DNA from: Dyella lutea
Lineage (GTDB): Bacteria; Pseudomonadota; Gammaproteobacteria; Xanthomonadales; Rhodanobacteraceae
Length of the DNA stretch: 64,000 nt
Assembly (NCBI RefSeq): GCF_024158035.1
Contig: NZ_JAMZEK010000001.1
Coordinates: forward strand, 1,220,001-1,284,000
Direction of reading: 5' to 3'
Part shown: in pieces, positions 8,516 to 64,000 of the stretch
Numbering within the stretch: the first letter of the stretch is position 1
Layout: each line of letters opens with the position of its first letter
Notes under the pieces: model-generated
The model's input: only the letters and a program-made list of their open reading frames with translations
Database searches by the model: none
What the model was told of the DNA's origin: nothing
Translations under genes and position numbers: made by a program

Positions 8516-8522
8516 GGCGGGC

Positions 8523-45829: not shown

Positions 45830-45835
45830 CCGCCG

Positions 45836-45947: not shown

Positions 45948-45963
45948 TGGCACGGCCATTGCT
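45948..45963 (+). promoter_or_regulatory. Sigma-54 (RpoN) promoter of the transporter array
   Basis: TGGCAC-GGCCA-TTGCT matches the -24/-12 consensus TGGCAC-N5-TTGCW at every position. It lies 48 bp before the start codon of the adaptor gene. Confidence 0.85.
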
Positions 45964-46011
45964 GAAAGGTCTACGTGGCTGCACCTGTCCGCAGCCGTTG
46001 GGGACCGATCG

Positions 46012-47283
46012 ATGATCCGTGACACCTCCGCCCAAGACCGACTGGTCGAGGTCAAATCCAACCGCAAGCGCCGGGTGCTGCTGATCGGCGCGGGCGTTGC
46101 CGTGGTCGCCGTGCTGGCGCTGGCGATGCCCGGGGTGATGCGGATGTTCTCCGCCGACGCCTCGGTCAGCGCCTCGCGTCTGGCCTTCGCCACGGTGACC
46201 CGCGGTCCGTTCGTGCGCGACATCGCCGCCGAGGGCAAGGTGGTGGCGGCGAACAGCCCCACGCTCTACGCCACGTCCGGCGGCGCGGTCACGCTGAAGG
46301 TGCATGCCGGCGACACGGTGAAGCAGGGCCAGGTGCTGGCGACCATCGTGAGCCCGGAGCTGACCAACAAGCTGGCGCAGGAGCAGTCCAACGCCGATGC
46401 GATGGAGGTCGACTACAAACGCGCCCAGATCGACGCCAAGAAACAGCGCGCGGCGCTGCAACAGGCCTACGACAATGCGCAGATCGACGCCCAGGCGGCC
46501 AAGCGCACGGTCGAACGCAACGAGGCCGCCTACGCCAAGGGCGCCGTGTCCAAGACCGATGTCGATACCGCCCACGATACCCTGGAGAAGGCGCAGATCG
46601 CCGAGCGCCATGCCAAGGCCAACCTCGGCCTGGACAACGACAGCCTGAACTTCAACATCGAATCGAAGAAGCTCGCCTATGAGCGGCAGAGCCTGCTGGT
46701 GCAGGACCTGCAGCGCCAGGTGGACGACCTCAACGTGAAGTCGCCGGTAGACGGCCAGGTCGGCCAGTTGTTCATCGCCGAACGCGCCACCGTGGCCAAG
46801 GACGCCCAACTGCTCAGCGTGATCGACCTGACCGCGCTGCAGGTGGAGATGCAGGTGCCGGAGAGCTTCGCCCGCGACTTGGGCATCGGCATGCCCGGCG
46901 AAATCACCGGCAACGGCCAGACCTGGCATGGCAAGGTCAGCGCGATCTCGCCGGAAGTGGTCAATGGCGAGGTCGCCGCGCGGCTGGCCTTCGACGGCGC
47001 CACGCCCAAGCAGTTGCGCCAGAGCCAGCGCCTGTCGGTGCGCGTGCTGCTGGACAAGCGGGACAACGTGTTGACCGTGCAGCGCGGCTCGTTCGTCGAC
47101 GAGTCCGGCGGCAACTATGCCTACGTGGTGCGCGACGGTATCGCGGTGAAGACGCCGATCCGCGTGGGCGCCAGCAGCATCGACAAGGTGGAGATCCTCG
47201 ACGGCCTGAAGGAAGGCGACAAGATCGTGATCTCCGGTACCGACAGCTTCAAGGGCGCCCAGCGCGTCGCCATCAGCAGTTGA
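46012..47283 (+). CDS. Periplasmic adaptor (HlyD/MacA-like) of the permease array
   Basis: A 423-residue membrane-fusion protein linking an inner-membrane transporter to the periplasm and, in tripartite pumps, to an outer-membrane channel. A single N-terminal helix (about residues 20-40) anchors it. GAVTLKVHAGDTVKQGQVLATI and later VKSPVDGQVGQLFIAERATVAKDAQLLSVIDL form the split lipoyl domain, and a long Ala/Gln/Lys-rich coiled coil lies between them (about 115-225). Beta-barrel and membrane-proximal domains follow (QVEMQVPESFARDLGIGMPG; GGNYAYVVRDGIAVKTPIRVGASSIDKVEILDGLKEGDKIVIS). First gene after the sigma-54 promoter, followed by the ATPase gene after 182 bp. Confidence 0.92.
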   Translation: MIRDTSAQDRLVEVKSNRKRRVLLIGAGVAVVAVLALAMPGVMRMFSADASVSASRLAFATVTRGPFVRDIAAEGKVVAANSPTLYATSGGAVTLKVHAGDTVKQGQVLATIVSPELTNKLAQEQSNADAMEVDYKRAQIDAKKQRAALQQAYDNAQIDAQAAKRTVERNEAAYAKGAVSKTDVDTAHDTLEKAQIAERHAKANLGLDNDSLNFNIESKKLAYERQSLLVQDLQRQVDDLNVKSPVDGQVGQLFIAERATVAKDAQLLSVIDLTALQVEMQVPESFARDLGIGMPGEITGNGQTWHGKVSAISPEVVNGEVAARLAFDGATPKQLRQSQRLSVRVLLDKRDNVLTVQRGSFVDESGGNYAYVVRDGIAVKTPIRVGASSIDKVEILDGLKEGDKIVISGTDSFKGAQRVAISS

Positions 47284-47294
47284 AGGCGCGCGGG

Positions 47295-47423
47295 GAACGG
47301 GGAATGGAGGGTCGGGAGATCAGAACCGCCGCCGCAGTTTGCCGTGACTGCCGGACGACGGGACCGCAAGGTGCTCTCCCCAGATCAGCGAATGCGGTGC
47401 TCCCGACTCTCCATTCCCCGTTC
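47295..47423. repeat. Long inverted repeat between adaptor and ATPase genes
   Basis: GAACGGGGAATGGAGGGTCG followed by GGAG (47295-47318) returns inverted at 47400-47423 with one mismatch over 24 bp; an 81-bp loop separates the arms. Similar GGGGAATGG-type intergenic repeats are common in Xanthomonad genomes. In the operon's RNA it would form a large hairpin. Confidence 0.75.
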
Positions 47424-47465
47424 TCCGCCGCCACCCTCCAGACCACCACCGAGTAAGGAAAAACC

Positions 47466-48191
47466 ATGCTCAAGATGACCCACCTGTCCAAGGTCTACCG
47501 CACCGAAGTGGTGGAGACCTACGCGCTGCGCGATTTCAACATCGACGTGAAGGAAGGCGAGTTCGTGGCCGTCACCGGCCCGTCCGGCTCGGGCAAGACC
47601 ACCTTCCTCACCATCGCCGGCCTGCTGGAAACCTTCACCGGCGGCACCTATCACCTGGACAACATCGAGGTGAGCCAGCTCGACGACAACGCCCGCTCGA
47701 AGATCCGCAACGAGAAGATCGGCTTCATCTTCCAGGCGTTCAACCTGATTCCCGACCTCAACGTGTTCGACAACGTCGAAGTGCCGCTGCGCTACCGCGG
47801 GATGAAGGCGCCCGAGCGCAAGGAGCGGATCATGGGCGCGCTCGAGCGCGTCGGCCTGGCCTCGCGCGCCAAGCACTATCCGGCGGAACTGTCCGGCGGC
47901 CAGCAGCAGCGCGTGGCGATCGCCCGCGCGCTGGCCGGCTCGCCGCGCCTGCTGCTGGCGGACGAACCGACCGGCAACCTGGACACCCAGATGGCCCGCG
48001 GCGTGATGGAGCTGCTGGAGGAGATCCACCGCGAGGGCGCCACCATCGTGATGGTGACGCACGATCCGGAGCTGGCCGCACGCGCCCAGCGCAACGTGCA
48101 CATCATCGACGGCCAGGTGGTCGACCTCGCCGAAGACCCGCGTTTCCACGCGCACGTCGTCGAGGCCCGCCAGGGGCAGGGACGCAGCTGA
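47466..48191 (+). CDS. MacB/LolD-type ABC transporter ATPase
   Basis: A 241-residue ATP-binding subunit of the MacB/LolD class, which drives mechanotransmission-type export. Walker A is GPSGSGKT (38-45), Q-loop [15 protein letters not shown] (86-100), ABC signature LSGGQQQ (142-148) and Walker [14 protein letters not shown] with catalytic Glu 167. The H-loop is [12 protein letters not shown]. The FQxFNLIPxLxVxxNVxxPL segment is diagnostic for this class. It is the only ATPase gene in the array, although twelve complete permease genes follow, which implies sharing. Start supported by GTAAGGA upstream. Confidence 0.95.
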
Positions 48192-48197
48192 GCGTCT

Positions 48198-48217
48198 GCG
48201 GCGGCCACGGCCGCCGC
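48198..48217. other. Perfect 20-bp palindrome after the ATPase gene
   Basis: GCGGCGGCC-AC-GGCCGCCGC begins 7 nt after the ATPase stop codon. It would form a strong RNA hairpin between the ATPase and the first permease and could protect the 5' message or reduce read-through. Confidence 0.6.
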
Positions 48218-48291
48218 GTCATGCAGGGGGAAGGTCCGCGGCAGCGATGCCGCGCGCCCCCGGTCGTGCAAGTCACCCCGAGGATCGGCTC

Positions 48292-49608
48292 ATGTTTGCC
48301 TACTATTTCGAACTGGCGTTGCGAAGCCTCAAGCGCAGCCGCGGCCTGACCCTGCTGATGGTGCTGGCGATCGGCTTCGGCGTTGCCGCGTCGATGACCA
48401 CCTATTCCGTATTCCGCGCGGTGTCGGGTGATCCGATCCCGTGGAAGTCGTCCAAGCTGTTCGTGCCGCAGATCGACATGTGGGGCCCGAAGGCGCGCGA
48501 TCCGAACGGCGACCCACCGGACGCGATGGACTACGCCGACGCCATGGCACTGATGCGCGCGCACCGCGCCAGGTACCAGTCGGCGATGTACCAGATCTCG
48601 CCGTCGGTGGTTCCGGCCGATGCCAGCAAGCATCCGATCAACGTCAGCGGGCATGCAGTGTTCAGCGAGTTTTTCCCGATGGTCGACGTGCCGTTCAAGT
48701 ACGGCGCCGGCTGGACGGCGGACGACGATACCCAGCGCTCCGCCGTGGTGGTGATCAGCAGCAAGCTCAACGACAAGCTGTTCGGTGGGCAAAACAGCGT
48801 CGGCCGCACGCTGGACATCGAAGGCAAGGACTACCGCGTGGTCGGCGTGACCGATCACTGGAACCCGCAGCCGCGCTTCTTCGACGTCGTCAATACCGGC
48901 GGCTTCACCGACGGCGCCGAGGACGTGCTCCTGCCATTCAACCGCGCCATCGACGTGGGCATGCCGAACAACGGCAACACCAACTGCAATGAAGTGCCGA
49001 AGGAGTCCGGCTTCGTCGGCCTGCAGCATTCCAGCTGCGTGTGGATGGCCTACATGGTGCAGCTGGACGATGCCGCGGCGGTGCAGGCCTATCGCGAGTA
49101 CCTGGACGGCTACGCGCGGGACCAGCAGAAGGCCGGGCGTTTCGGCTGGGCACCCAACAATCGCCTGCGCGACGTGCCGGCCTGGCTCGACGCCGAGCAC
49201 GTGGTGCCCAGCGACACCAAGGTCTCGCTGCTGGTCGCCCTGGGGCTGCTGGTGGTCTGCCTGGTCAACACCGCCGGCCTGCTGCTGGCCAAGTTCCTGC
49301 GTCGCAGCAGCGAGATCGGCGTGCGCCGCGCCCTGGGCGCCCAGCGCAGCGCGATCTACGCGCAGTTCCTCACCGAGGCCGGCATCGTGGGCCTGGCCGG
49401 CGGCGTGCTGGGACTGCTGCTGACGGGTGTCGGCGTGGCCAGCGTGGGCTGGGTGATGCCCAAGGACATCGCCTCGCTGGCGCGGCTGGACGTCTCGCTG
49501 CTGGCCATCACCCTGCTGGTCGCCGTGGTCGCCACGATGCTGGCCGGCCTCTATCCCACCTTCCGGGCCTCGCGCGTGCAGCCCGCCTGGCAGCTGAAGT
49601 CGAACTGA
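48292..49608 (+). CDS. Permease A1 (MacB/FtsX-type)
   Basis: A 438-residue half-permease with the MacB/FtsX plan: one N-terminal helix (about 18-42), a large periplasmic domain (43-310), then three helices near 312-336, 362-385 and 402-422. A cytoplasmic coupling segment EIGVRRALGA lies between helices 2 and 3. N-terminal YYFELALRSLKRSRGLTLL is the array's A signature. Periplasmic motifs include FGGQNSVGRTLDIEG and WNPQPRFFDV. Cysteines 232 and 249 flank a 16-residue loop. Ends PAWQLKSN. With A2 it shares IGFGVAASMTTY in helix 1, unlike A3-A6. B1 follows after 10 nt. Confidence 0.93.
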   Translation: MFAYYFELALRSLKRSRGLTLLMVLAIGFGVAASMTTYSVFRAVSGDPIPWKSSKLFVPQIDMWGPKARDPNGDPPDAMDYADAMALMRAHRARYQSAMYQISPSVVPADASKHPINVSGHAVFSEFFPMVDVPFKYGAGWTADDDTQRSAVVVISSKLNDKLFGGQNSVGRTLDIEGKDYRVVGVTDHWNPQPRFFDVVNTGGFTDGAEDVLLPFNRAIDVGMPNNGNTNCNEVPKESGFVGLQHSSCVWMAYMVQLDDAAAVQAYREYLDGYARDQQKAGRFGWAPNNRLRDVPAWLDAEHVVPSDTKVSLLVALGLLVVCLVNTAGLLLAKFLRRSSEIGVRRALGAQRSAIYAQFLTEAGIVGLAGGVLGLLLTGVGVASVGWVMPKDIASLARLDVSLLAITLLVAVVATMLAGLYPTFRASRVQPAWQLKSN

Positions 49609-49618
49609 GGATCACGCC

Positions 49619-50872
49619 ATGAAGCTCCATCCCATGATCGCGGCCCTGCGCCGGCACAAGGCAGGCGTGGTGCTGATCGCCCTGCAGATCGCGCTGACCC
49701 TGGCCATCGTCTGCAACGCGGTGTTCATCATCGGTCAGCGCATCGAGCGCGTGAACCGGCCCACCGGCCTGGTGGAAGACAACCTGATGCTGGTTTCCCA
49801 GGGCTGGGTCGGCGCACCCAGCGGCGATCAGCCCGGAGACGTGGAGAAGCTCGACAGCCTGCTGCAGGCCGACCTCGCCGCGCTGCGCGCGATGCCGGAC
49901 GTGGAATCGGTGGTGCCGATCAACTCGCTGCCGCTGCTCAACTCGTCGTGGACCGGGTCGGTGGCGCTCAAGCCCGGCAGCGACCTGCGCGCGGGCAACG
50001 CGCGCAGCGTCTATTACTTCGGCGACGAGCACCTGCTCAAGACGCTGGGCCTGAAGCTGGTGGCCGGGCGCGGCTTCACCGCGGCCGACGTGCAGAATCG
50101 CGGATTCCGCGACAGCGGCACGCCGGCGGTGATCATCGTGACCAAGGCACTGGCCGACAAGCTGTATCCGAAAGGCGACGCGCTGGGCAAGGCGATCTAC
50201 CTGGACGGCGGCAGCTCGCCCAGCACCATCATCGGCGAGGTGGAGCGCCTGCAGGCTCCGGCCACCGGCAGCTGGGTCAACGGTTTCCTCTGGAACGCGA
50301 CGATCGAGCCGTTCCGCCTGAACGCCAACTTCTCGCGCTACGCGATCCGCACCAGGCCGGGGCGGCTGCAGGCGGTGATGCACGCGGTGCCCAACGTGCT
50401 GTACGGGGTGAGCCGCATGCGCGTGCTCGACGACGACAGCGTCAAGTCGTTCGCGCAGATCCGCCAGGAGGCCTACCGCTCCGACGTCGGCATGGCGGTC
50501 CTGATGGGCGTGGTCTGCCTGATCCTGCTGGGCGTGACCGCCGCTGGCATCGTCGGCCTGACCAGCTTCTGGGTCGGCCAGCGCCACCGCCAGATCGGCG
50601 TGCGCCGCGCCCTGGGTGCGCGAAAGATCGACATCCTGCACTACTTCCAGATGGAGAACCTGCTGATCTCCGGTGCCGGCGCGGTGATCGGGTTGGGCCT
50701 GGCCATCGGTCTGAACATGCTGCTGATGAAGCGTTTCGAGATGGACCGCTTGCCGGTGCTGTACGTGCTGGCCGGCATCGTGGCGGTGATGGCGCTGGGC
50801 CAGGGGGCGGTATTCGCACCGGCGCGGCGCGCTTCCAACGTGCCGCCGGTGGTGGCGACGCGCAGCGTGTGA
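49619..50872 (+). CDS. Permease B1 (MacB/FtsX-type)
   Basis: A 417-residue half-permease, partner of A1. The N-terminal cytoplasmic MKLHPMIAALRRHKAG is followed by helix 1 (16-40) with the B-family signature AIVCNAVFIIGQR (Cys 32). The periplasmic domain (41-288) lacks cysteine and holds VYYFGDEHLLKTLGLKLVAGRGF. Helices 2-4 lie near 290-317, 346-370 and 380-402. The coupling region SFWVGQRHRQIGVRRALGARKIDILHYFQMEN is close to B2's. Ends VPPVVATRSV. Unlike A permeases, helix 2 carries the AGIVGLTSFW motif. Confidence 0.93.
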   Translation: MKLHPMIAALRRHKAGVVLIALQIALTLAIVCNAVFIIGQRIERVNRPTGLVEDNLMLVSQGWVGAPSGDQPGDVEKLDSLLQADLAALRAMPDVESVVPINSLPLLNSSWTGSVALKPGSDLRAGNARSVYYFGDEHLLKTLGLKLVAGRGFTAADVQNRGFRDSGTPAVIIVTKALADKLYPKGDALGKAIYLDGGSSPSTIIGEVERLQAPATGSWVNGFLWNATIEPFRLNANFSRYAIRTRPGRLQAVMHAVPNVLYGVSRMRVLDDDSVKSFAQIRQEAYRSDVGMAVLMGVVCLILLGVTAAGIVGLTSFWVGQRHRQIGVRRALGARKIDILHYFQMENLLISGAGAVIGLGLAIGLNMLLMKRFEMDRLPVLYVLAGIVAVMALGQGAVFAPARRASNVPPVVATRSV

Positions 50873-50876
50873 TCTC

Positions 50877-50905
50877 GCCCCCTCGCCTTCCAGGGGCGAG
50901 GGGGC
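50877..50905. other. Strong hairpin between B1 and A2
   Basis: GCCCCCTCGCC / GGCGAGGGGGC, an 11-bp perfect stem with a 7-nt loop, starts 5 nt after the B1 stop. No T-run follows, so mRNA processing or attenuation is likelier than full termination. Confidence 0.6.
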
Positions 50906-50922
50906 AGCTCTGGGAGCTATGA

Positions 50923-52236
50923 ATGTTCGGCTACTACTTTCAGCTCGGCCTGCGGAGCCTGCGCCGCAACCCGGCGCTTACCGCATTGATGGTCATGGCG
51001 ATCGGCTTCGGCGTGGCCGCTTCGATGACCACCTACGCGGTGTTCCGTGCGGTATCGGGCAACCCCATCCCGGACCGGTCGGCGCGGCTGTTCACGCCGC
51101 AGATCGATGCCTGGGGACCGCAGCAGAACCTGAAGGGCGGCGAGCCGGCGGAAGCGCTCGGCTATGTCGACGCCATGGCGCTGATGCGCGCAAACGAGGC
51201 GAAGCGCCAGACACTGCTGTATCCCGTGCAACTCTCGGTGATCCCGCAGGGCAATCGCGACCTGCCTCTGAACGCCAACGGTTACGCGGTTACCAGCGAT
51301 TTCTTCGCCATGTTCGAGGTGCCGTTCCGGTACGGCAGCGGCTGGAGCGGGCAGGACGACGCTGCGCGCACCGCCGATGTCGTGATCAGTGACGAGCTCG
51401 ACCAGAAGCTGTTCGGCGGAGCCGACAGCGTGGGGCAAACGCTCAACCTCGGCGGCCACGATTACCGCATCGTGGGAGTGGCCAGCCACTGGAACCCGCG
51501 TCCGCGCTTCTACGATCTGTTCAGCACCGGCGGCTTTGCCGACGAACCGGACATCTACATGGTGTTCAACCGCGCCCTAGATCTGCAGATGCGCACCGGT
51601 GGTCGCAACAGCTGCCGCGGCTCGCTCAGCTTCACCACCTGGCAGGAGTATCTGCAGAGCAACTGCGTGTGGATCACTCCGTGGGTGGAGCTGGACAGTT
51701 CCGTCGACGTCGCTGGTTATCGTCGGTTCCTTACCAACTACGCCGCCGAGCAGCAGCATGCCGGCCGCTTCAACTGGGCGCCGAACGTACGGCTGCGTGA
51801 CGTGATGCAGTGGATGGACCAGGAACAGGTGGTGCCGCCGGAGAGCCGCATTTCGCTGGCGGTGGCGCTGGGCTTTTTCGTGATCTGCCTGGTCAACACC
51901 ATCGGCCTGCTGTTGGCGAAGTTCATGCGGCGCGCCGGAGAGATCGGCGTGCGCCGCGCCCTGGGGGCGACGCGCGGCGAGATCTATGCGCAATACCTGA
52001 TCGAGGCCGGCACGGTGGGCCTGACCGGTGGTCTGGTGGGCCTGCTGCTCACCGCAGTGGGCGTCGGGGGCGTGAGCGTGCTGTTCCGGCCGGAGATCGC
52101 GAAGCTGGCCCGGCTCGATCCGTCGCTGGTGGCGCTCACGCTTGCCGTCGCCATCGTCGCCACCGTGATGGCCGCGTTCTACCCGGCGTGGCGCGCGGCG
52201 CACGTGCAGCCGGCCTGGCAACTGAAATCGAGCTGA
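50923..52236 (+). CDS. Permease A2 (MacB/FtsX-type)
   Basis: A 437-residue A-family permease, the closest relative of A1 in the window. Shared features are IGFGVAASMTTYAVFRAVSGNPIP, VDAMALMRANEA, DDAARTADVVISDEL, FGGADSVGQTLNL, HWNPRPRFYDL, and terminal PAWQLKSS. The periplasmic Cys pair is 231/248, again 16 residues apart, but the loop sequence (RGSLSFTTWQEYLQSN) has nothing in common with A1's. Helices are near 18-42, 311-335, 361-384 and 401-421. The start has GGAGCT upstream. Separated from B1 by 50 nt containing a hairpin, and followed by B2 after 10 nt. Confidence 0.93.
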   Translation: MFGYYFQLGLRSLRRNPALTALMVMAIGFGVAASMTTYAVFRAVSGNPIPDRSARLFTPQIDAWGPQQNLKGGEPAEALGYVDAMALMRANEAKRQTLLYPVQLSVIPQGNRDLPLNANGYAVTSDFFAMFEVPFRYGSGWSGQDDAARTADVVISDELDQKLFGGADSVGQTLNLGGHDYRIVGVASHWNPRPRFYDLFSTGGFADEPDIYMVFNRALDLQMRTGGRNSCRGSLSFTTWQEYLQSNCVWITPWVELDSSVDVAGYRRFLTNYAAEQQHAGRFNWAPNVRLRDVMQWMDQEQVVPPESRISLAVALGFFVICLVNTIGLLLAKFMRRAGEIGVRRALGATRGEIYAQYLIEAGTVGLTGGLVGLLLTAVGVGGVSVLFRPEIAKLARLDPSLVALTLAVAIVATVMAAFYPAWRAAHVQPAWQLKSS

Positions 52237-52246
52237 GGAGAAAGCC

Positions 52247-53488
52247 ATGGATATCCAGATCAGGCCCATCCTCGTCGCGCTGCGCCGGCACAAGGCGGGC
52301 ACCTTGCTGATCGCGCTGCAGATCGCGCTGACACTCGCCATCGTCTGCAACGCGTTTTTCATCATCCACCAGCGACTGGCCAATTTGTCGCAGGCCAGCG
52401 GCGTGGACGAGGGGGACGTGTTCGTCATCGCCAACTATTGGGCCGACGTGAATCGCTCGACAGAGCAGGTCGATGCGCAAGTGCGCGCCGATCTGATTGC
52501 CTTGCGGCAATTGCCCGCCGTGCTCGATACCACGCCTGCCAGCGGTTATCCGCTGCGGGGCGGAGGGTGGGACAATTTCGTCACCATGACGCCCGACCAG
52601 GTCAAGCCGACCACGGATGCGGCGGTATACACCGGCGACGAACATTTCATCGACACGCTGGGCCTGAATCTCGTCGCGGGGCGCAACTTCCGCCCCGACG
52701 AAGTGACGGCCATGGGCACGCAGCAGGCGATCACTCCGTCGACCGCGATCGTGAGCAAGGCGCTGGCCGAGCGTCTCTTCCCCGGTGGCAACGCCCTCGG
52801 CAAGAGCTTCTACGCGATGGGTACTACGCCAAGCACCATCATCGGCATCGTCGATCCGCTGCATCGGCAGGGTGTGGATTCGTGGAGCAACAGCTACGCC
52901 GGCCAGGCGCTGATCTGGCCGTTGCGGGCGGATGACTCGAAAGGCATCTACTACATCGTGCGTGCCAGACCCGGACAGCTTGCTGCCGCGATGCGCGACG
53001 CACCCAAGGCTCTGTATGCACAAAACCGCATGCGCATCATCGATCCGAAGGACGGCATCCAGAGCTATGCCGAGATCCGCCACCGTGTCTACGACAGCGA
53101 CCGCGGCATGGTCATCCTGATGAGTGTGATCAGCGTGGTGCTGCTGGCCATCACCGCCGCCGGCATCGTGGGCCTGACCAGTTTCTGGGTGGGGCAGCGG
53201 CGCAAGCAGATCGGGGTGCGCCGGGCGCTGGGTGCGCGTCAGCGCGACATCCTGAGCTACTTCCTCACCGAAAACCTGCTGATCACCGGCGGCGGCGTGC
53301 TGCTCGGGTTGCTGCTGGCCATCGGCACGAACCTGTGGCTGATGCTGCGCTTCGCTTCCCAGCCGATGCCGATGGTCTATCTGGTCGTCGGTGTCCTGCT
53401 GCTGTTGCTGCTGGGGCAGGGCGCGGTTTTCGCGCCGGCGCTGAGGGCGTCGCGCGTGCCGCCAGTCGAGGCCACGCGTTCGGTGTAA
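52247..53488 (+). CDS. Permease B2 (MacB/FtsX-type)
   Basis: A 413-residue B-family permease. It has the N-terminal extension of two residues relative to the others (MDIQIRPILVALRRHKAG), which shifts the signature Cys to 34 (LAIVCNAFF). TPSTIIGIVDPLH, AAGIVGLTSFWVGQRRKQIGVRRALGARQRDILSYFLTEN and terminal VPPVEATRSV (Glu where other copies have Val) are distinctive. Periplasmic domain without cysteine. It pairs with A2 and resembles B1 more than B3-B6. A3 begins 44 nt after its stop. Confidence 0.93.
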   Translation: MDIQIRPILVALRRHKAGTLLIALQIALTLAIVCNAFFIIHQRLANLSQASGVDEGDVFVIANYWADVNRSTEQVDAQVRADLIALRQLPAVLDTTPASGYPLRGGGWDNFVTMTPDQVKPTTDAAVYTGDEHFIDTLGLNLVAGRNFRPDEVTAMGTQQAITPSTAIVSKALAERLFPGGNALGKSFYAMGTTPSTIIGIVDPLHRQGVDSWSNSYAGQALIWPLRADDSKGIYYIVRARPGQLAAAMRDAPKALYAQNRMRIIDPKDGIQSYAEIRHRVYDSDRGMVILMSVISVVLLAITAAGIVGLTSFWVGQRRKQIGVRRALGARQRDILSYFLTENLLITGGGVLLGLLLAIGTNLWLMLRFASQPMPMVYLVVGVLLLLLLGQGAVFAPALRASRVPPVEATRSV

Positions 53489-53532
53489 GTGCACGGTGGC
53501 GAAGCCGGGGCGTTCTTTCAAGGGGCAATCGG

Positions 53533-54837: not shown

Positions 54838-54845
54838 GACCGATC

Positions 54846-56075: not shown

Positions 56076-56098
56076 CAGTCCCGATGACGAGCCTGCCC

Positions 56099-56178
56099 GT
56101 AAGAGCCCGCTCGCGGGCGATGCCTTTGCCCTGGTTTTGCATCGAACCCAAGCGCATCGCCCGCGAGCGGGCTCCTAC
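56099..56178. repeat. Inverted REP pair inside the permease array
   Basis: GTAAGAGCCCGCTCGCGGGC (56099 onward) faces GCATCGCCCGCGAGCGGGCT (56154 onward), ending CCTAC at 56178. It is the same REP type as at 39136-39213 and lies in the longest inter-pair gap of the array, between B3 and A4. Confidence 0.8.
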
Positions 56179-56210
56179 CGGAAATTCGACGATGAGCGCG
56201 GAGTAACTCC

Positions 56211-57518: not shown

Positions 57519-57525
57519 GGCGACC

Positions 57526-58758
57526 ATGGACATTCTTCCGATTCTCTCCACGCTGCGTCGCCACAAGCTCACGGCCGGCCTGCTGGTCATGCAGATCGCG
57601 CTGACCTGCGCGATCGTCTGCAACGCGGTGTTCCTGATCGGCCAGCGGCTGCAGCGCATGGACTTGCCCAGCGGCGTCGCGGAGCACGAGCTGCTGCAGA
57701 TCCAGGTGGCCGACGTGGTCAAGTCCGGCAATCCCTATGCGCGCGTGCAGGAAGATCTGGCGCTGCTGCGCCAGGTGCCTGGCGTGCAGTCGGTGGCGTT
57801 CTCCAACCAGGTGCCGTTCGGTGGGTCGTCCTCCAATGGCAACGTGCTGCTCGACCCGAACCAGCCCCAGCGCACGCTCAACGCGACCACCTATTTTGGC
57901 CAGAACCTGGTGCCGACGATGGGCGTGCAAATGGTCGCCGGGCGCGACCTGCAGGACGACGATTTCGTCGACGTGGACACCGCGCTGAAGGGGCTGAAGA
58001 CCGGCGACACCAAGAGCCTGCCGCATGTCACGCTGATCACCCGCGACATGGCCGAACGCCTCTGGCCCGGACAGAACCCGCTGGGTCGACTGATCTACCT
58101 GACGCCGACGGTGGGGCTGCGGGTGGTCGGTGTCATGGCCAGCCTGGTGCGCCCCAATGCCTACGATGCGAACACGGCGCAATACACCATGGTGATCCCG
58201 CTGCGCATGGGGGCGGACCGGGGCATGAGCTACGTGATCCGCGCCCGGCCGCAGGATCGGGCCAGTGTGCTGGCGGCGGCGCTGGCCGCCCTGAGGAAGG
58301 CCGACCCCCAGCGTATCGTCACGACCCAACGCAGCTTCGACGAGGTGCGTCGTCACTTCTTCCGCGACGATCGAGCCATGGCCGGCATCCTGGTCGGGGT
58401 GATCGCGGCGCTGCTGGTGGTGACCGCCCTGGGCATCGTCGGGCTGGCCAGCTTCTGGGTGGCACAGCGTCGACGCACGATCGGCGTGCGCCGTGCGCTG
58501 GGGGCGACCCGCAGCGACGTGCTGCATTACTTCCAGACCGAAAACTTCCTGCTCGCCACCATCGGCATCGGTCTCGGCATGGTGCTGGCCTACGGCATCA
58601 ACCTGTTCCTGATGCAGCACTACGAGCTGCCCCGCCTGCCGGCGATCTACTTCCCGGTCGGTGCGGTCGCGCTGTGGCTGATCGGCCAGGTCGCCGTGCT
58701 GGGCCCGGCGCTGCGCGCCGCGGCGGTGCCGCCGGTGGTGGCGACGAGAGCAGGGTGA
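57526..58758 (+). CDS. Permease B4 (MacB/FtsX-type)
   Basis: A 410-residue B-family permease starting MDILPILSTLRRHKLTAGLLVMQIALTCAIVCNAVFLIGQR (Cys 32). It begins 7 nt after A4, the tightest junction of the array. Periplasmic region: FSNQVPFGGSSSNGNVLLDPNQPQRTLNATTYFGQNLVPTMGVQMVAGRDL, then LITRDMAERLWPGQNPLGRLIYL. Coupling region SFWVAQRRRTIGVRRALGATRSDVLHYFQTENFLLATIGIGLGMVLAYGINLFLM. Ends VPPVVATRAG. A 55-nt gap precedes A5. Confidence 0.93.
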   Translation: MDILPILSTLRRHKLTAGLLVMQIALTCAIVCNAVFLIGQRLQRMDLPSGVAEHELLQIQVADVVKSGNPYARVQEDLALLRQVPGVQSVAFSNQVPFGGSSSNGNVLLDPNQPQRTLNATTYFGQNLVPTMGVQMVAGRDLQDDDFVDVDTALKGLKTGDTKSLPHVTLITRDMAERLWPGQNPLGRLIYLTPTVGLRVVGVMASLVRPNAYDANTAQYTMVIPLRMGADRGMSYVIRARPQDRASVLAAALAALRKADPQRIVTTQRSFDEVRRHFFRDDRAMAGILVGVIAALLVVTALGIVGLASFWVAQRRRTIGVRRALGATRSDVLHYFQTENFLLATIGIGLGMVLAYGINLFLMQHYELPRLPAIYFPVGAVALWLIGQVAVLGPALRAAAVPPVVATRAG

Positions 58759-58813
58759 GGCGGCCCATGGTGATACGGGGGTTCGGCGAGTGCGTGGGAC
58801 GGGGCAGCCCGTG

Positions 58814-60106
58814 ATGATCGGCTACTACCTCGATCTGGCCATGCGCAGCCTGAAGCGCAACAAGGTGCTCACCGTGCTGATGGTGCTGGCCATCGCGGTG
58901 GGTATCGGCACCAGCATGACCACGTTGACCGTCATGCATGTGCTGTCGGGTGATCCGATCCCGCAGAAGAGTGCGGACCTGTTCCGTGTGGGCCTGAATG
59001 TGTTTCCGGACGACAATTTCAGGCCCGGCGAGGAAGTGCCGGACAACCTGACCCGTCGGGATGCCGAGGCGCTGCTGCGTGACGCCCGTGCCGATCGCCA
59101 GGCGATGATGTCGGCCGGCACCATGGTGGTGACGCCGGCACAGGGTGATCCGTTGAGCCTGGAGTCGCGCTACACCACCGCGGACTTCTTCACGATGTTC
59201 GCCGTGCCGTTCCGTTTCGGTCGCGCCTGGGACCGCGGCGACGACGGCAGTCATGCCCGTGTGGCGGTGATCTCGGCTGCGTTGAACGATCAGCTGTTCG
59301 GCGGTCGTGACAGCACCGGCTCGATGCTGCAGGTGGGAAGCCAGTCGCTGCGGATCGTCGGCGTGCTCGGCGACTGGAGCATGAATCCCCGCTTCTACGA
59401 TCTCAGCAACGGCCGCTTCGGCGACAGCGAACAGGTATTCGTCCCGCTCGCCACGGCGCTGGATCTGCATCTGGCGACCAGCGGCACGATGAACTGCTGG
59501 GGCAACAACTCCGATGAGCACGCCGCGGATGCGCCCTGCCTGTGGTTGCAGTACTGGGCCGAGCTCGACGCCCCATCGACACGAGTGGCTTACCGGCAAT
59601 ACCTGCACAACTACATGGCCCAGCAGCAACAGGCCGGGCGCTTCACCCATCCCGGACAGATCCGCCTGCTGGATGTGATGCAGTGGCTGGACGCCAAGGG
59701 TGTGGTGCCCTCGGACGTGCGGCTGCAGGTGTGGCTGGCCCTCGGCTTCCTCGGCATCTGTCTGCTCAACACCGTGGGTCTTTTGCTGGCCAAGTTCCTG
59801 CGTCGCAGCGGCGAGATCAGTGTGCGACGTGCCCTGGGTGCGTCGCGTCGCGCGATCTTCATGCAGTGCCTGGTCGAGGCCGGGGTGGTCGGTCTGGCTG
59901 GCGGCGTCTGCGGGCTGGCGCTGGCCGGCCTGGGCCTGGTGCTGGTGCGCCATCAGCCGACCGACTACGCCGGCTTGATCCGCATGGATCCGAGCATGCT
60001 GCTGGCGACCTTCGTGCTGGCTCTGCTGAGCAGCCTGCTGGCCGGACTCCTGCCCGCCTGGAGGGCGATGCACGTTGCCCCGGCCGTGGCCCTGAAGTCG
60101 AACTAG
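58814..60106 (+). CDS. Permease A5 (MacB/FtsX-type)
   Basis: A 430-residue A-family permease, the shortest complete A copy. The start is ATG at 58814 directly after a GTG, giving MIGYYLDLAMRSLKRNKVL. Helix 1 reads VGIGTSMTTLTVMHVLSGDPIP. Periplasmic motifs: ARADRQAMMSAGTM, RYTTADFFTMFAVPFRFGRAW, FGGRDSTGSMLQVGSQ. The Cys pair 228/242 encloses 13 residues (WGNNSDEHAADAP), the shortest of the array. The coupling region reads EISVRRALGASRRAIFMQCLVEAG (Ser for Gly). Ends APAVALKSN. B5 follows after 10 nt. Confidence 0.93.
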   Translation: MIGYYLDLAMRSLKRNKVLTVLMVLAIAVGIGTSMTTLTVMHVLSGDPIPQKSADLFRVGLNVFPDDNFRPGEEVPDNLTRRDAEALLRDARADRQAMMSAGTMVVTPAQGDPLSLESRYTTADFFTMFAVPFRFGRAWDRGDDGSHARVAVISAALNDQLFGGRDSTGSMLQVGSQSLRIVGVLGDWSMNPRFYDLSNGRFGDSEQVFVPLATALDLHLATSGTMNCWGNNSDEHAADAPCLWLQYWAELDAPSTRVAYRQYLHNYMAQQQQAGRFTHPGQIRLLDVMQWLDAKGVVPSDVRLQVWLALGFLGICLLNTVGLLLAKFLRRSGEISVRRALGASRRAIFMQCLVEAGVVGLAGGVCGLALAGLGLVLVRHQPTDYAGLIRMDPSMLLATFVLALLSSLLAGLLPAWRAMHVAPAVALKSN

Positions 60107-60116
60107 GACGCCCACG

Positions 60117-61340
60117 ATGCATCTACGCCACATTCTTCGTGCCCTGGGACGCCACCGGATCGCGGTGGGGCTGCTGGTGCTGGAGATTGCCTTCTCCTGT
60201 GCGGTGGTCTGCAACGCGCTGTTTCTCATCGGCACCCGGCTGGAGCGCATGCAGCGACCCACCGGCGTCGACGAGATGCACGTGGTCGAGGTGGGCGTGC
60301 GCAGCGTCACACCGGGTACGCCGGAGGCGACGATGGCGCAGACCCGCACCGATCTGGCACGCCTGCGCGCGCTGCCCGGCGTGAGCGACGCGGTGGTCGC
60401 CAACCCGACCCTGTTCGGTGATTCGGTGAGCTTCAGCAGCGTACGCCTGCGTGACGACGCGAAGGCACCGAGCCTGCCGGTGGCCCAGTATTTCGGCGGT
60501 GCTCCGCTGGCGCGCACGCTCGGCCTGAAGCTGGCGAGCGGCCGCTGGTTTCGACCCGACGAATTCGTCGGCTACGACGCGCTGCAGAACGACACGTCCG
60601 CCGTACCGGTGATCATCAGTCGCGCGCTGGCTCGGCATCTGTTTCCCGGGCAGGACGCCGCAGGCCAGACTATCTATGCCTTCGGTACCAACCGGGTGGT
60701 CGGCGTAGTCGACCGGCTGGTGCAGCCCATGGACTACGGCGCGGCCGGAGGCTACGACTACGCGATGATGTTCCCGGTCGATCTGCCGTATTCGCGCGGC
60801 ACCTACCTGATGCGGGTCGATGATCCGGCCCGTCGGCAGGCCGTGATCGGCCAGGCGTTGCAGGCACTGAAAGCCAATGGTCCGCTGCGGCTGATCGCGC
60901 CCCGGTACGCCACCACCCTGGAGGCGGCGCGCGCGAAGTACTACCGCAACGACCGCGCCATGGCCTGGCTGCTGGTCGGCGTGAGCCTGTTGCTGCTGCT
61001 GGTCACCGCGCTGGGCATTGTGGGGCTGAGCAGCTTCTGGGTGGGGCAGCGGCGCCGGCAGATCGGCATTCGCCGTGCCATCGGCGCCTCGCGCGCCGAT
61101 ATCCGGCGCTACTTCCAGGCCGAGAACTTCCTGATCGCCACCGGCGGCATCGCGCTTGGCATGGCGCTCGCCTACGGCATCAACCTGGTACTGATGCGGC
61201 ATTACGAGCTCGGCCGCCTGCCCGGCTACTACCTGCCGATCGGCTCGGTGGCGCTTTGGGTGCTGGGGCAACTGGCGGTGCTGGGACCGGCGCTGCGCGC
61301 AGCGGCGGTGCCGCCGGTGGTGGCGACGCGGGCGGCATGA
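60117..61340 (+). CDS. Permease B5 (MacB/FtsX-type)
   Basis: A 407-residue B-family permease: MHLRHILRALGRHRIAVGLLVLEIAFSCAVVCNALFLIGTR, Cys 32. The periplasmic domain has VEVGVRSVTPGTPEATMAQTRTDLARLRALPG, YFGGAPLARTLGLKLASGRWF and PVIISRALARHLFPGQDAAGQTIYAFG. The cytoplasmic segment SFWVGQRRRQIGIRRAIGASRADIRRYFQAENFLIATGGIALGMALAYGINLVLM follows. Ends VPPVVATRAA. Only 21 nt separate it from A6, the smallest inter-pair gap of the array. Confidence 0.93.
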   Translation: MHLRHILRALGRHRIAVGLLVLEIAFSCAVVCNALFLIGTRLERMQRPTGVDEMHVVEVGVRSVTPGTPEATMAQTRTDLARLRALPGVSDAVVANPTLFGDSVSFSSVRLRDDAKAPSLPVAQYFGGAPLARTLGLKLASGRWFRPDEFVGYDALQNDTSAVPVIISRALARHLFPGQDAAGQTIYAFGTNRVVGVVDRLVQPMDYGAAGGYDYAMMFPVDLPYSRGTYLMRVDDPARRQAVIGQALQALKANGPLRLIAPRYATTLEAARAKYYRNDRAMAWLLVGVSLLLLLVTALGIVGLSSFWVGQRRRQIGIRRAIGASRADIRRYFQAENFLIATGGIALGMALAYGINLVLMRHYELGRLPGYYLPIGSVALWVLGQLAVLGPALRAAAVPPVVATRAA

Positions 61341-61361
61341 GGCAGACGAGGAGCTAAGGAC

Positions 61362-62681
61362 ATGTTCACCTACTACTTCGACCTGGCCCTGCGCAGCCTC
61401 AAGCGCAACAAGGTTCTGACAGCGCTGATGGTGCTGGCCATCGCCGTAGGCATCGGCGCCAGCATGACCACGCTGACGGTGATGCATCTGCTTTCGGGCG
61501 ATCCGCTGCCCGGGCGCAGCGGTCATATCTACTACCCGCAGGTGGACGCCACGCCGGCCGGTTACACGAAGGGCGGGCCGTTGGACATGCTCGACTACCG
61601 ATCGGCAGTCGACCTGTGGAGCGCGCGTCGCGCCGACCGCCAGGCGTTGATCGCCGGCAGCGACGTCAAGGTGAGTGCGCCAGGATCCAACCAGCCGCCC
61701 GTGATGCGTCCGATGCTGGCGACTACGGCCGATTTCTTCCCGATGTTCGACGTGCCGTTCCGCTACGGAAGCAGCTGGACCACGGCAGACGATGCGGCCC
61801 GGGCGCGGGTGGCGGTGATCTCCGCCAGTCTCAACGACCGGCTTTTCGGCGGCCGCAACAGCGTTGGCAGGACGCTGCACCTGAAGGACAGCGACGTGCG
61901 CATCGTCGGCGTGCTGGATGCATGGCGGCCCTCCCCGCTGTTCTACGACGTGCGCGGCGGCCGCTTCGCCCAGGGTCAGACGGCCGGCTTCTACGGCAAG
62001 CCGGAAGATGTCTTCATGCCATTCTTCGGGGCCCTGGAGGTCAACGCCGGCAACTTCTGGCAGTTCACCTGCTGGGGAAAGGTGACCACGCCGGGTCGTC
62101 TGCAGAACCAGCCATGCGTCTGGGTCGGCCTGTGGGTGCAGCTGGAGAGCGCCTCCAGAGCTGCAGATTACCGAGCCTTCATCGCGAGCTATGCGAGGGA
62201 GCAGAAGGCGCTCGGCCGCTTTGCCGAAACCCGGGTAAGGATGATGCATCTGATGCAGTGGCTGGACTTCAACCACGTGGTCCCCAGCGACGTGAAGCTG
62301 CAGACCTGGCTGGCGTTCGCGTTCCTCGCCATCTGCCTGTTCAACACCATCGGACTGCTGCTGGCGAAGTTCCTGCGTCGCGGCGGCGAGATCGGCGTGC
62401 GGCGGGCGCTGGGCGCCAGCCGGCGGGCGGTGTTCGCGCAATGCCTGGTGGAGGCCGGTGTGGTTGGCCTGGTCGGCGGTATCGGTGGTTGGTTGCTGAC
62501 CCTGGCTGGCCTGTGGCTGGTGCGCCGGCAGCCCGTCGAGTACGCCGACATGGCGCATCTGGACCTGGGCATGTTCGGGGTGACGTTTGCGCTGGCCATC
62601 GCCGCCAGCCTGCTCGCCGGCGTATTGCCGGCGCTGCGTGCCAGTCGGGTCACCCCGGCACTGCAACTGAAGACGCTGTGA
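61362..62681 (+). CDS. Permease A6 (MacB/FtsX-type)
   Basis: A 439-residue A-family permease, the longest A copy. The N-terminal half (MFTYYFDLALRSLKRNKVLTALMVLAIAVGIGASMTTLTVMHLLSGDPLPGRSG) is closest to A4/A5. The periplasmic domain carries a five-residue-longer insertion before the Cys pair 237/252, which flanks 14 residues (WGKVTTPGRLQNQP). LFGGRNSVGRTLHLKDSDVRIVGVLDAWRPSPLFYDV is conserved. Coupling region EIGVRRALGASRRAVFAQCLVEAG. Ends TPALQLKTL. The start has GGAGCTAAGGAC upstream, and B6 begins 10 nt after the stop. Confidence 0.93.
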   Translation: MFTYYFDLALRSLKRNKVLTALMVLAIAVGIGASMTTLTVMHLLSGDPLPGRSGHIYYPQVDATPAGYTKGGPLDMLDYRSAVDLWSARRADRQALIAGSDVKVSAPGSNQPPVMRPMLATTADFFPMFDVPFRYGSSWTTADDAARARVAVISASLNDRLFGGRNSVGRTLHLKDSDVRIVGVLDAWRPSPLFYDVRGGRFAQGQTAGFYGKPEDVFMPFFGALEVNAGNFWQFTCWGKVTTPGRLQNQPCVWVGLWVQLESASRAADYRAFIASYAREQKALGRFAETRVRMMHLMQWLDFNHVVPSDVKLQTWLAFAFLAICLFNTIGLLLAKFLRRGGEIGVRRALGASRRAVFAQCLVEAGVVGLVGGIGGWLLTLAGLWLVRRQPVEYADMAHLDLGMFGVTFALAIAASLLAGVLPALRASRVTPALQLKTL

Positions 62682-62691
62682 GGAGCCGGAC

Positions 62692-63906
62692 ATGCAGATA
62701 GCGCCCATTCTCGCCGCGTTGCGCAAACATCGCCTGGCCACCGTGCTGATCGCGCTGGAGATCGCGCTGGCCTGCGCGGTGCTGTGCAACGCCTGTTTCA
62801 TTATTGCCAGCCGCCTCTCCGCGATGCATGTGGAGAGCGGCATCGACGAGCCTGCGCTGGCGACGGTGCAGCTGACCGGCTACGACCCCTCCCAATCCGT
62901 CGATGTCGACGCGCGCGCGCTGGCGGCGCTGCGTGCGGTACCCGGTGTGCAGTCGGTCACGTTGCTCAACTCCATCCCGTTCGGTGCCCGCCGCGGCACC
63001 GCGGGCATCACCACCGATGCGGAGAGGCAGCATTTCGGTGGCGTGATCGAGTTCTACGTCGGTGCGCCGGGTAGCTTGGACGCGCTCGGGTCCCGGATCG
63101 TCGCCGGCCGGGGACCGCGGCCGGAGGATTTCCAGCCGTTCACCGGCTTCATGCCCAACGAGGCCAACGTGCAGATCACCCAGGCCCTGGCCGACCACCT
63201 CTGGCCGGGTGTCGATCCGCTGGGCAAGGAGTTCTGGATGCTCAAGTCGCACTACCGCGTCGTCGGAGTGCTGAAAACCCTGGTCCGGCCGGATCCGCCC
63301 GGCTGGACGCCGCAGGAGCGGCTGTGGTCGGTATTCGTGCCGGCGCAGCCGGGGCCTTACCTTACCGGCAGTTACCTGCTGCGCGCTGATCCGAAGGAGA
63401 TGCCGCGGGTGATGCGCGACGCGCTGGCGGCCGTCGCCAGGGCCCTGCCCGAGGTGGTGATCGACCGGGACGCCAGCCAGACCCTAACCGACCTGCGGCA
63501 CGAGACCTTCAGGAACGACCGCATCATGGCCGGACTGATGCTCGGCGTGATCGCCGCCCTGCTGCTGGTGACCGCGCTGGGCATCGTCGGCCTGGCCAGC
63601 TTCTGGGTCGCCCAGCGCCGCAAGCAGATCGGCGTACGCCGTGCGCTGGGCGCCACCCGCGGCGACATCCTGCGTTACTTCCAGACCGAGAACTTCCTGA
63701 TCGTCAGCCTCGGCATCGCGCTGGGCATGCTGCTGGCTTATGCGCTGAACGTGGCGCTGATGCAGGTCTACGAGCTGCCGCGCCTGCCGCTGGCCTACCT
63801 GCCGGTCGGTGCGCTGGCGCTGTGGGTGCTGGGCCAGCTCTCGGTGCTGGCGCCGGCGCTGCGTGCCGCGGCGGTGCCGCCGGTGGTGGCGACACGGAGT
63901 GTCTAG
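62692..63906 (+). CDS. Permease B6 (MacB/FtsX-type)
   Basis: A 404-residue B-family permease, the shortest B copy: MQIAPILAALRKHRLATVLIALEIALACAVLCNACFIIASR, with Cys 32 and an extra Cys 35. The periplasmic domain has VQLTGYDPSQSVDVDARALAALRAVPGVQSV, then LNSIPFGARRGTAGITTDAERQHFGGVIEFYV. Helix 2 and coupling region: ALGIVGLASFWVAQRRKQIGVRRALGATRGDILRYFQTENFLIVSLGIALGMLLAYALNVALM. Ends VPPVVATRSV. A7 starts 47 nt after the stop. Confidence 0.93.
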   Translation: MQIAPILAALRKHRLATVLIALEIALACAVLCNACFIIASRLSAMHVESGIDEPALATVQLTGYDPSQSVDVDARALAALRAVPGVQSVTLLNSIPFGARRGTAGITTDAERQHFGGVIEFYVGAPGSLDALGSRIVAGRGPRPEDFQPFTGFMPNEANVQITQALADHLWPGVDPLGKEFWMLKSHYRVVGVLKTLVRPDPPGWTPQERLWSVFVPAQPGPYLTGSYLLRADPKEMPRVMRDALAAVARALPEVVIDRDASQTLTDLRHETFRNDRIMAGLMLGVIAALLLVTALGIVGLASFWVAQRRKQIGVRRALGATRGDILRYFQTENFLIVSLGIALGMLLAYALNVALMQVYELPRLPLAYLPVGALALWVLGQLSVLAPALRAAAVPPVVATRSV

Positions 63907-63953
63907 CTGGCCACGTGTGAGCGATCGCTTCATCTGGGAAAAGGAGATTCGCG

Positions 63954-64000
63954 ATGTTGATGTATTACCTCGGTCTGGCGCGGCGCAGCCTGCGCCGCAG
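63954..64000 (+). CDS. Permease A7, N-terminal fragment at the window edge
   Basis: The last 47 bases encode MLMYYLGLARRSLRR, matching the A-family N-terminal signature (YY-DLA-RSL-R). AAGGAGA lies 8 nt upstream. The gene continues beyond the window, so the array has at least seven A genes and its length is unknown. Confidence 0.85.
   Translation, partial: MLMYYLGLARRSLRR

Follow-up and report, generated by a model that had tools for sequence, protein, structure and literature searches.

Introduction

In MacB, the ATPase is fused to the permease and the protein functions as a homodimer. ADOP permeases form large paralogous families and owe the name 'orphan' to the frequent absence of an ATPase. 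A single energising subunit is common to many transport units in the MsmK sugar transporters and the group II ECF transporters. LolCDE has one permease pair and is not known to use an adaptor or TolC, and YbbAP-TesA has one permease and is not known to use an adaptor (general background; compare PMC8277102 and PMC12646458). The darobactin exporter DarBCD contains one fused permease, DarB (compare PMC9055067), and MceG is a shared energising subunit of importers (compare PMC9947336).

Here, we describe a permease array from Dyella lutea. The window is the whole 64,000-nucleotide stretch of DNA that was analysed (contig NZ_JAMZEK010000001.1, positions 1,220,001 to 1,284,000), and positions are counted from its first base. 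We consider it likely that one energising module, consisting of an ATPase and an adaptor, serves a replaceable repertoire of A-B permease pairs in this system.

Layout of the array

The array opens with a gene for a membrane-fusion (periplasmic adaptor) protein at 46012-47283 (423 aa; HlyD_D23/RND_mfp families) and a gene for an ABC ATPase of the MacB/LolD/DarD type at 47466-48191 (241 aa; ABC_tran), both on the + strand, as are all the array genes placed in the window. Eight intact permease pairs follow this single adaptor and single ATPase. The first consists of A1 (48292-49608, 438 aa) and B1 (49619-50872, 417 aa), each with MacB_PCD and FtsX domains. Open reading frames with a coupling motif then continue as A2 (50923-52236), B2 (52247-53488), A3 (53533-54837), B3 (54846-56075), A4 (56211-57518), B4 (57526-58758), A5 (58814-60106) and B5 (60117-61340), followed by A6 (61362-62681) and B6 (62692-63906), both of them open reading frames with a coupling motif that were also scanned with domain and family models. 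A7 starts at 63954, reaches the window end at 64000 and runs on to 65264; in the longer source stretch, B7 (65268-66500), A8 (about 66540-67886) and B8 (67894-69117) lie outside the window. With A7, B7, A8 and B8 beyond the window end, the total is eight pairs, the last ending at 69117.

The earlier note had described one adaptor, one ATPase and at least six alternating pairs, and this layout holds up: all of the genes from A1-B1 to A6-B6 and the start of A7 were found, all in frame, with junctions of 7-10 nt inside the six window pairs and 21-135 nt from pair to pair. The coupling motif RRA(L/V/I)GA is present in 16 of 16 array permeases, and following the contig past the window reaches the array end after eight pairs. 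Pfam matches downstream of B8 indicate a lipoprotein-like open reading frame, a DUF885 protein, an NtrC-type regulator and a histidine kinase.

The adaptor-ATPase-A-B-A-B order is found again at other loci (87 source stretches), so the array is not a chance arrangement. Two consecutive B genes show up in four of the 87 (L066 and L080, and apparently L031 and L070); the remaining stretches keep strict A-B alternation up to the stretch or contig limit.

A sigma-54 (-24/-12) promoter, TGGCACGGCCATTGCT, lies at 45948-45963 on the + strand, 48 nt upstream of the adaptor start; no other site in the 64 kb window is free of mismatches. At 80 of 82 loci, this one included, such a site, counted when it scores at least 13 of 14.5, is found 11-62 nt upstream of the adaptor. 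The description in the earlier note began at 45948, the first base of this promoter, which its text did not mention. Between 45700 and 64000, no sigma-70 promoter was found (1.9 expected in shuffles), and the five intrinsic terminators, versus 6.6 expected in shuffles, amount to no signal; RNA families had no match anywhere in the 64 kb window. We infer that an NtrC-type two-component system controls the array.

The same genome contains a second locus (L108) in which an adaptor and an ATPase are followed by three fused ADOPs, an NtrC-type regulator and a kinase. A one-mismatch site at L108:5761 was considered as the sigma-54 promoter of this fused locus and rejected, because it falls right on the adaptor start codon and such sites are no commoner than in shuffles.

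Permease pairs and their partners

A aligns to positions 7-401 and B to positions 411-801 of the 803-position ADOP model (TIGR03434). Since A thus corresponds to the N half and B to the C half of a fused ADOP, an A-B pair is a split ADOP. Each permease covers one half, and none of those scanned reaches the cutoff of 622.3 bits (A1 187.7, A6 158.6, B1 163.8 and B6 177.6); the fused permeases of L108 score 599, 611 and 644 bits with the same model. A1, B1, A6 and B6, the four permeases scanned with these models, all have PF02687 (FtsX) and PF12704 (MacB periplasmic core) above cutoff. A and B belong to different subfamilies, with 24-28% identity among the five best matches.

Structure models of A4 (mean pLDDT 84.4) and B4 (mean pLDDT 94.9) have a MacB-like fold, in which one helix and a large periplasmic domain precede three helices. 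The long helices span residues 17-45, 305-335, 350-385 and 398-424 in A4 and 14-45, 280-314, 329-366 and 375-399 in B4. The top PDB match of both models is MacB (5gko), and YbbAP-TesA (9ge6) is also among the fold matches. The pair is probably a heterodimer of the MacB fold. The heterodimers proposed in the earlier note gain support from the match to two halves of one fused protein and from the mirrored trees of A and B.

For the ATPase, the best NCBIfam model is DarD, at 253.5 bits versus a cutoff of 375, and the scores for LolD and YbbA are near; the adaptor matches the DarC model over its full length at 86 of 450 bits, below cutoff. The adaptor gene is present beside the ATPase in the loci read, contig and stretch ends excepted. 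A TolC-type gene sits between the ATPase and the first A in 21 of the 87 loci (with PF02321 in the copy of genome G053); this array has none, and OEP domains occur elsewhere in the same genome. A megablast search of the ATPase against plasmids gave no record covering 80% of it.

These partners bear on whether the array might be a lipoprotein or lipid trafficking machine, LolCDE- or YbbAP-like, rather than a TolC exporter. A heterodimeric permease whose ATPase is a protein of its own resembles LolCDE, and the closeness of the ATPase to LolD and YbbA points the same way. Against this stand the lolCE model, which gives A1 22.7 bits versus a cutoff of 362.45, the adaptor found beside the ATPase in the loci read, the TolC-type gene in the operon at 21 of the 87 loci and MacB as the best PDB match; we regard the trafficking role as very unlikely.

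Counts and divergence across genomes

The 58 family genomes contain 286 A, 294 B and 57 ATPase genes, with exactly one ATPase copy in 55 of them. The numbers of A and B genes are equal in 52 genomes and unequal in six; at L130, read directly, one A accompanies two B. At least three A genes are present in 38 of the 58, with a maximum of 15, so the array size that the earlier note called unusual in scale is usual within the family; G022 has 12 pairs. Its proposal of one ATPase for many pairs agrees with these counts and with the distant pairs that have no such ATPase nearby. Nor does each pair appear to have its own ATPase elsewhere, a situation the earlier note had named as contrary to its reading: this genome holds no second ATPase of the array type. 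It does have other ABC ATPases (57%, 46% and 44% identical). Across 101 order-level genomes, A and the ATPase occur together in 56 and are both absent from 44; the one mismatch is G131, where an A gene is present and no close ATPase was found. Whether the shared ATPase is under stronger constraint than single-pair ATPases gave a mixed result, which does not serve as proof here: multi-pair loci had the lower ATPase/MFP distance ratio at small distances only.

Partners are inherited together. For 207 pairs, the A and B distances correlate with r 0.926; when partners are shuffled inside arrays (500 shuffles), the mean r is 0.19 and the maximum 0.30. The tree comparison used only pairs with >90% coverage of both genes; L012, which shares its contig with G022, and L016, whose assembly is palindromic, had been removed. 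A and B share one pair as nearest foreign neighbour in just 107 of 167 cases. In the sister genome G029, the unit corresponding to A6-B6 is strongly divergent: its pair 6 has dS values of 1.01 (A) and 0.79 (B), versus 0.09-0.29 for the other G029 pairs. Between close relatives, replacement seems to affect whole pairs, and it may be the cause of this divergence.

The repeated pairs could instead have arisen by tandem duplication of a single exporter; they would overlap in substrate, provide dosage or redundancy and be kept by drift and recombination. They do stand head to tail behind one promoter, and a single A gene suffices in 16 of the 58 family genomes. We nevertheless find this explanation quite unlikely, given that the array's own copies are merely 34-57% (A) and 35-50% (B) identical to each other, that several of its pairs have close counterparts in genomes beyond the genus and that dN/dS, with whole genes compared, is at most 0.59.

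Pairs away from the ATPase

The unselected sample comprises all 120 A places of the 101 genomes, of which 19 are away from the ATPase. Among the 17 distant places read (with the reading of L119 taken from the hand-picked sample and the G131 gene left out), 14 are without adaptor and ATPase of the array type and three carry their own. In a hand-picked sample of satellite loci, chosen among the places listed, none of 15 has the ATPase; L124, where an array ends on a contig of 7.9 kb, was left out, and in L118 the A start was not properly located. The ATPase profile for the hand-picked loci was built from the array ATPases and that of L108, so L108 is no independent control. A satellite pair could also use another ABC ATPase of its genome, which counts against a shared ATPase.

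Several satellite pairs lie directly behind regulatory genes, namely LytS-LytTR (L114, L115, L118, L119 and L120) or BlaI-BlaR1 (L121, L125, L128, L129, L137 and L138). Fused peptide-exporter-type ABC genes are near the distant pairs L139 and L149, and the L123 pair is placed behind a gene for an AMP-binding enzyme.

In the 19 hand-picked satellite A genes, the consensus of the coupling motif equals that of array A, and the satellite B consensus differs from array B at two of 28 positions. The consensus leaves out the genes from which the motif was not extracted: 6 of the 207 A genes, 19 of the 207 B genes and, among the satellites, one of the 19 B genes. Among the fused ADOPs of this genome, F1 and F3 differ more in this motif, and F2 gave none. 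Within the array's own paralogues, conservation in A/B is 0.70/0.69 in the coupling region and 0.38/0.30 in the periplasmic part.

Permease-type sensors accompany sensor-regulator genes in Bce systems, and the position of some satellites behind such genes, together with the 'orphan' naming of ADOP, favours another view: the ATPase would energise only one or two of the array pairs, with the rest acting without ATP drive, for instance as ligand sensors or array regulators. Against this, the array's own copies are best conserved in the coupling region, where satellite A has the same consensus, and no internal stop was seen in any A gene among the 120 listed across the 101 order-level genomes, which also answers the earlier note's concern that most copies might be pseudogenes. 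We judge non-energised pairs unlikely.

Comparison with described systems

ADOP is matched half by half, A to its N half and B to its C half; here, however, the permease is divided over two genes that stand with those of an adaptor and an ATPase, and neither half reaches the cutoff alone. DarBCD (NF038007, NF038008 and NF038010) likewise has an adaptor, a separate ATPase and a double permease, but all scores here are under the curated cutoffs (17.4 of 700 bits for DarB on B6) and eight split pairs take the place of one fused permease. MacAB-TolC shares the permease fold and the adaptor, and probably the use of a TolC-type partner, and differs from the array, in which the ATPase is separate from the permease, the two halves are different and the pairs are many. 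LolCDE is alike in its heterodimeric permease and separate ATPase, and YbbAP-TesA in its double permease and separate ATPase. The MsmK, MceG and group II ECF systems also join one energising subunit to many membrane or substrate-binding units; they are importers of other kinds.

SmaCDEF of Stenotrophomonas maltophilia was rejected as a counterpart: around the site of one published primer, 16 kb of sequence showed neither A nor B homologues, apart from one match 91 residues long at 32 bits. That primer site (one mismatch) is in a channel gene (PF02321), and the other primer has no exact match. The ATPase near the site is 41% identical to that of the fused locus. Anti-phage defence was also rejected: PADLOC gave ATPase-domain matches for the ATPase, and one weak match for A4 (E 1e-5), whereas the adaptor, B4 and the DUF885 protein had none. 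The earlier note knew of no described system of this form, and among the papers listed from the open PMC library none describes such arrays in its title or in the opening of its abstract.

Discussion

From the counts, locations and coupling motifs, we infer that the ATPase is shared; the adaptor would likewise be common to many pairs. The array would then be a type VII (MacB/FtsX-type) tripartite exporter of modular build. A single ATPase dimer and a single adaptor would work together with an outer-membrane channel of the TolC type, whose gene lies elsewhere in this genome. The conserved coupling helices of each A-B pair would dock on the common ATPase, and the divergent periplasmic domains would select the substrate. 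The two-component system would turn the array on via its one sigma-54 promoter; gain, loss and replacement would affect whole pairs, and chromosomally dispersed pairs under private regulators would apparently be powered in trans by the same ATPase. Export is the presumed direction. The exporter probably acts against envelope-active compounds or antimicrobial peptides, as the ATPase and adaptor are DarBCD-like, L139 and L149 are near peptide-exporter-type genes and L123 is behind the AMP-binding enzyme.

We lean slightly towards a broader reading, a genome-wide 'power socket' of one ATPase and one adaptor into which many split-ADOP pairs plug as exchangeable cassettes. These would include dispersed pairs that neighbour peptide-exporter genes or have regulators of their own for sensing antibiotics or peptides. 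This would be the export counterpart of the shared-module importers and would explain how orphan ADOPs are energised.

If the ATPase is indeed shared, dozens of natural pairs that combine a constant ATPase interface with variable periplasmic domains would be suited to the mapping of substrate choice. Among the dispersed pairs, those with BlaR1 or LytTR regulators and those that neighbour peptide-exporter genes are candidate resistance or self-protection modules. If the shared-module reading is true, it points to a source of energy for the ADOP permeases, called orphans for want of an ATPase. MacB-type exporters would then not all be one pump with one permease; the repertoire would grow by adding or swapping pairs without new ATPases, an unusually economical way of keeping many exporters.

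Array layout and permease identity

On the 1.66 Mb contig that holds the window (positions 1220001-1284000; genome 4.4 Mb), the adaptor gene starts at 46012 on the plus strand (423 aa) and is followed by the ATPase gene (plus strand, 241 aa), whose closest relatives are found in Dyella and Rhodanobacter. Behind the ATPase, permease genes A and B strictly alternate on the same strand. Twelve complete permeases lie inside the window and four more past its end; the earlier note had counted at least six pairs, and extension along the contig brings the array to eight, the last one stopping at 69117. The longest gap between pairs (B3-A4, 135 nt) holds a weak terminator-like hairpin at 56115-56131 that is not above chance, and sigma-70 promoters and terminators gave no signal above chance within 45700-64000. 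Past the last pair lie a lipoprotein-like ORF (our reading only; no Pfam match), the gene of a DUF885 protein and two regulatory genes. Pfam assigns receiver, sigma-54 interaction and Fis domains to the first of these, a regulator, and a HATPase domain to the second, a histidine kinase, whose HAMP match falls slightly under cutoff. The DUF885 gene (window 69929-71731; 7929-9731 in L010, the stretch continuing the array), between array and regulator, is also present in genomes G029, G044, G003 and G051 and absent from the stretches of G022, G040, G053 and G009.

The four permeases scanned (A1, B1, A6 and B6) have MacB core and FtsX domains. Against the fused ADOP model (NCBIfam, 803 positions), A1 covers 7-401, A6 covers 7-400, and B1 and B6 cover 411-801, so that the pairs are related to ADOP through both halves. 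In AlphaFold models of A4 and B4 (mean pLDDT 84 and 95), a long helix is followed by a periplasmic domain and then three more helices; the top PDB match for both is MacB (5gko; query-normalised TM 0.64 and 0.66).

A second locus in the same genome (L108, C2, about 5777-18088) has the same plan with fused permeases in place of pairs: adaptor, ATPase (57% identical to that of the array), three fused ADOPs (599, 611 and 644 bits; cutoff 622), NtrC-type regulator and kinase, the last two similar to the array's own. Because the three sit behind one ATPase and adaptor, these ADOPs are not orphans. The matching halves and this same-plan locus together mark A-B as a split ADOP; since these relatives join both halves in one protein, A and B probably form a heterodimer.

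Occurrence across genomes

The 58 family genomes, each at least 90% complete and all used for every count, hold 286 A (0-15 per genome), 294 B and 57 ATPases. A and B are equal in number in 52, and 55 have exactly one array-type ATPase; G012 has two, and G023 and G055 have no A, B or ATPase. Counting pairs per genome, as the earlier note proposed, shows arrays to be usual in the family, since 38 of 58 genomes hold at least three A genes. G022 has the largest array read, with 12 pairs; eight further arrays, also read completely, have 11, 11, 9, 8 (the present one), 7, 7, 7 and 6. In the order-level sample of 101 genomes, A occurs in 57 and the ATPase in 56; the sole mismatch is G131, whose best ATPase is 45% identical. 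Positive genomes outside the family mostly carry a single A (32/43). That the copies might be pseudogenes in relatives finds no support: the 120 A genes listed from the 101 genomes are all free of internal stops.

One A and two B stand behind one adaptor and ATPase at L130:6062-12304, and gene counts alone give one A to 2-4 B in G004, G016 and G043; in some lineages B may vary on its own. L016, a palindrome around the ATPase and probably an assembly artefact, was left out.

Control of the array

A sigma-54 site, TGGCACGGCCATTGCT (45948-45963), is the sole zero-mismatch match in the 64 kb window. With up to two mismatches allowed, the window has 28 matches and shuffles average 33; weight therefore falls on the exact site and its conservation alone. 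In 80 of 82 loci scanned (all except L047 and L053), the adaptor is preceded by a site with a score of 13 or more out of 14.5; when the upstream stretch of each of these loci is shuffled, no more than 2% of the shuffles reach its score. In all nine arrays read at the downstream end, the regulator and kinase genes come next. Given this conservation and gene position, the array is most likely controlled by the two-component system encoded behind it.

Pairs as evolutionary units

Across 207 pairs, the tree distances of A are correlated with those of B (r = 0.926); partner shuffling within each array gives 0.19, and the highest of 500 shuffles 0.30. The strong agreement has its exceptions, because the nearest foreign neighbours of A and B belong to the same pair in only 107 of 167 cases. 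Compared with sister genome G029, dS is 0.09-0.29 for most pairs and 1.01 (A) and 0.79 (B) for pair 6; compared with G044, pairs 2, 4, 6 and 7 are jointly divergent (0.49-0.73) and the remaining genes lie at 0.15-0.24, except B5 at 0.43. In the two identity profiles (G029 pair 6 and G044 pair 4), identity falls close to where A begins and is regained around the end of B or where the next A begins. We read the divergent pairs as replacements by recombination; differential loss of old paralogues is the alternative source.

The comparison of periplasmic and membrane parts suggested in the earlier note gives higher periplasmic dN/dS in most genes of divergent pairs (0.61 and 0.22 in B4 of G044; A2 of G003 is an exception), with dN/dS below 1 everywhere. 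Among the eight copies of the array, identity is 0.70 (A) and 0.69 (B) in the coupling region and 0.38 and 0.30 in the periplasmic parts, which fits a common ATPase and varied substrates, a pattern that many permease families might match.

Pairs away from the ATPase

Of the 120 A genes in the full list from the 101 order-level genomes, 19 are distant: no ATPase lies within 45 kb of them on their contig. Eighteen were read, at 17 places (that of G131 was left out). Three places (L136, L143 and L144) have their own adaptor and ATPase and are a second complete system; the other 14 have neither of array type in the stretch, mostly about 7 kb each side. No B was seen at L146. In 15 hand-picked loci (L114-L123 and L125-L129; L119 is also in the unselected set), the ATPase profile gave no hit at E<1e-4 and detected 7/7 control loci, and the adaptor profile gave a single weak match (7e-5, L114). 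Array and distant pair share a contig, at least 0.2 Mb apart, in G029 (4.07 and 1.06 Mb), G024, G037 and G050. Nineteen satellite A's have the same coupling-motif consensus as the array; the motif was obtained from two of three fused ADOPs, and both differ from this consensus. Given the missing local ATPase and the common consensus of the A's, ATPase-less pairs are most likely powered in trans by the single ATPase; less probably, they run on another ATPase.

Other ABC genes occur at two of the 14 places, L139 and L149. L139 carries a bacteriocin-type ABC exporter with a C39 peptidase (3212-5440; its top model, NHLP bacteriocin export, scores under cutoff), a further ABC-domain fragment and an ATPase-less pair at 6432-8941, and is possibly a bacteriocin locus with its own protection pair. 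At L149 a fused ABC membrane-ATPase gene (9094-10713) lies directly upstream of the pair (6493-9035).

Histidine kinase and LytTR regulator genes lie directly upstream of the pair at L114, L115, L119 and L120 (PF06580 and PF04397 checked on L114 copies), and L118 has versions of 36-39% identity. BlaI and BlaR1-type M56 peptidase genes directly precede ATPase-less pairs at L121, L125, L128 and L129 (PF05569 run on L121 and L128, PF03965 on L121, L128 and L129; the L125 genes were assigned from homology and reading). Homology also places such genes upstream at L137 and L138 of the unselected set. Sigma-54 sites scoring at least 13 occur in 5 of 16 hand-picked pair groups (L115 second pair, L116, L122, L126 and L127); that of L117 scores 12.5. 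At L123 the pair lies behind an AMP-binding enzyme (PF00501, 10467-12308), a possible natural-product cluster.

Proposed working and role

In the working that we propose, one adaptor, one ATPase dimer and a TolC-type channel would form a constant module on which A-B pairs swap. Of 87 loci, 21 have a TolC-type gene between the ATPase and first A (the one copy tested matches PF02321); OEP domains are found elsewhere in the present genome, and the channel for its array would have to come from another place. A TolC-like gene (L141:1066-2535) is near two ATPase-less pairs of G022. The periplasmic domains of the pairs would catch different compounds, and ATP-driven movement would hand these to the adaptor, as MacB passes its substrate. 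The regulator would raise the entire array under some stress, and satellite pairs would be raised by their own signals.

The array would work much as MacAB-TolC and DarBCD do, but departs from each in defining features. Among importers, MsmK, MceG and group II ECF are known cases of a shared ATPase; the titles and abstract starts searched in the open literature described neither a type VII exporter with a shared ATPase nor an array of this kind. LytTR- and BlaI/BlaR1-type regulators typically take part in sensing antibiotics, peptides or the envelope. From these regulator types, the exporter neighbours and the resemblance to DarBCD, we propose that the system may act against envelope-active compounds or antimicrobial peptides.
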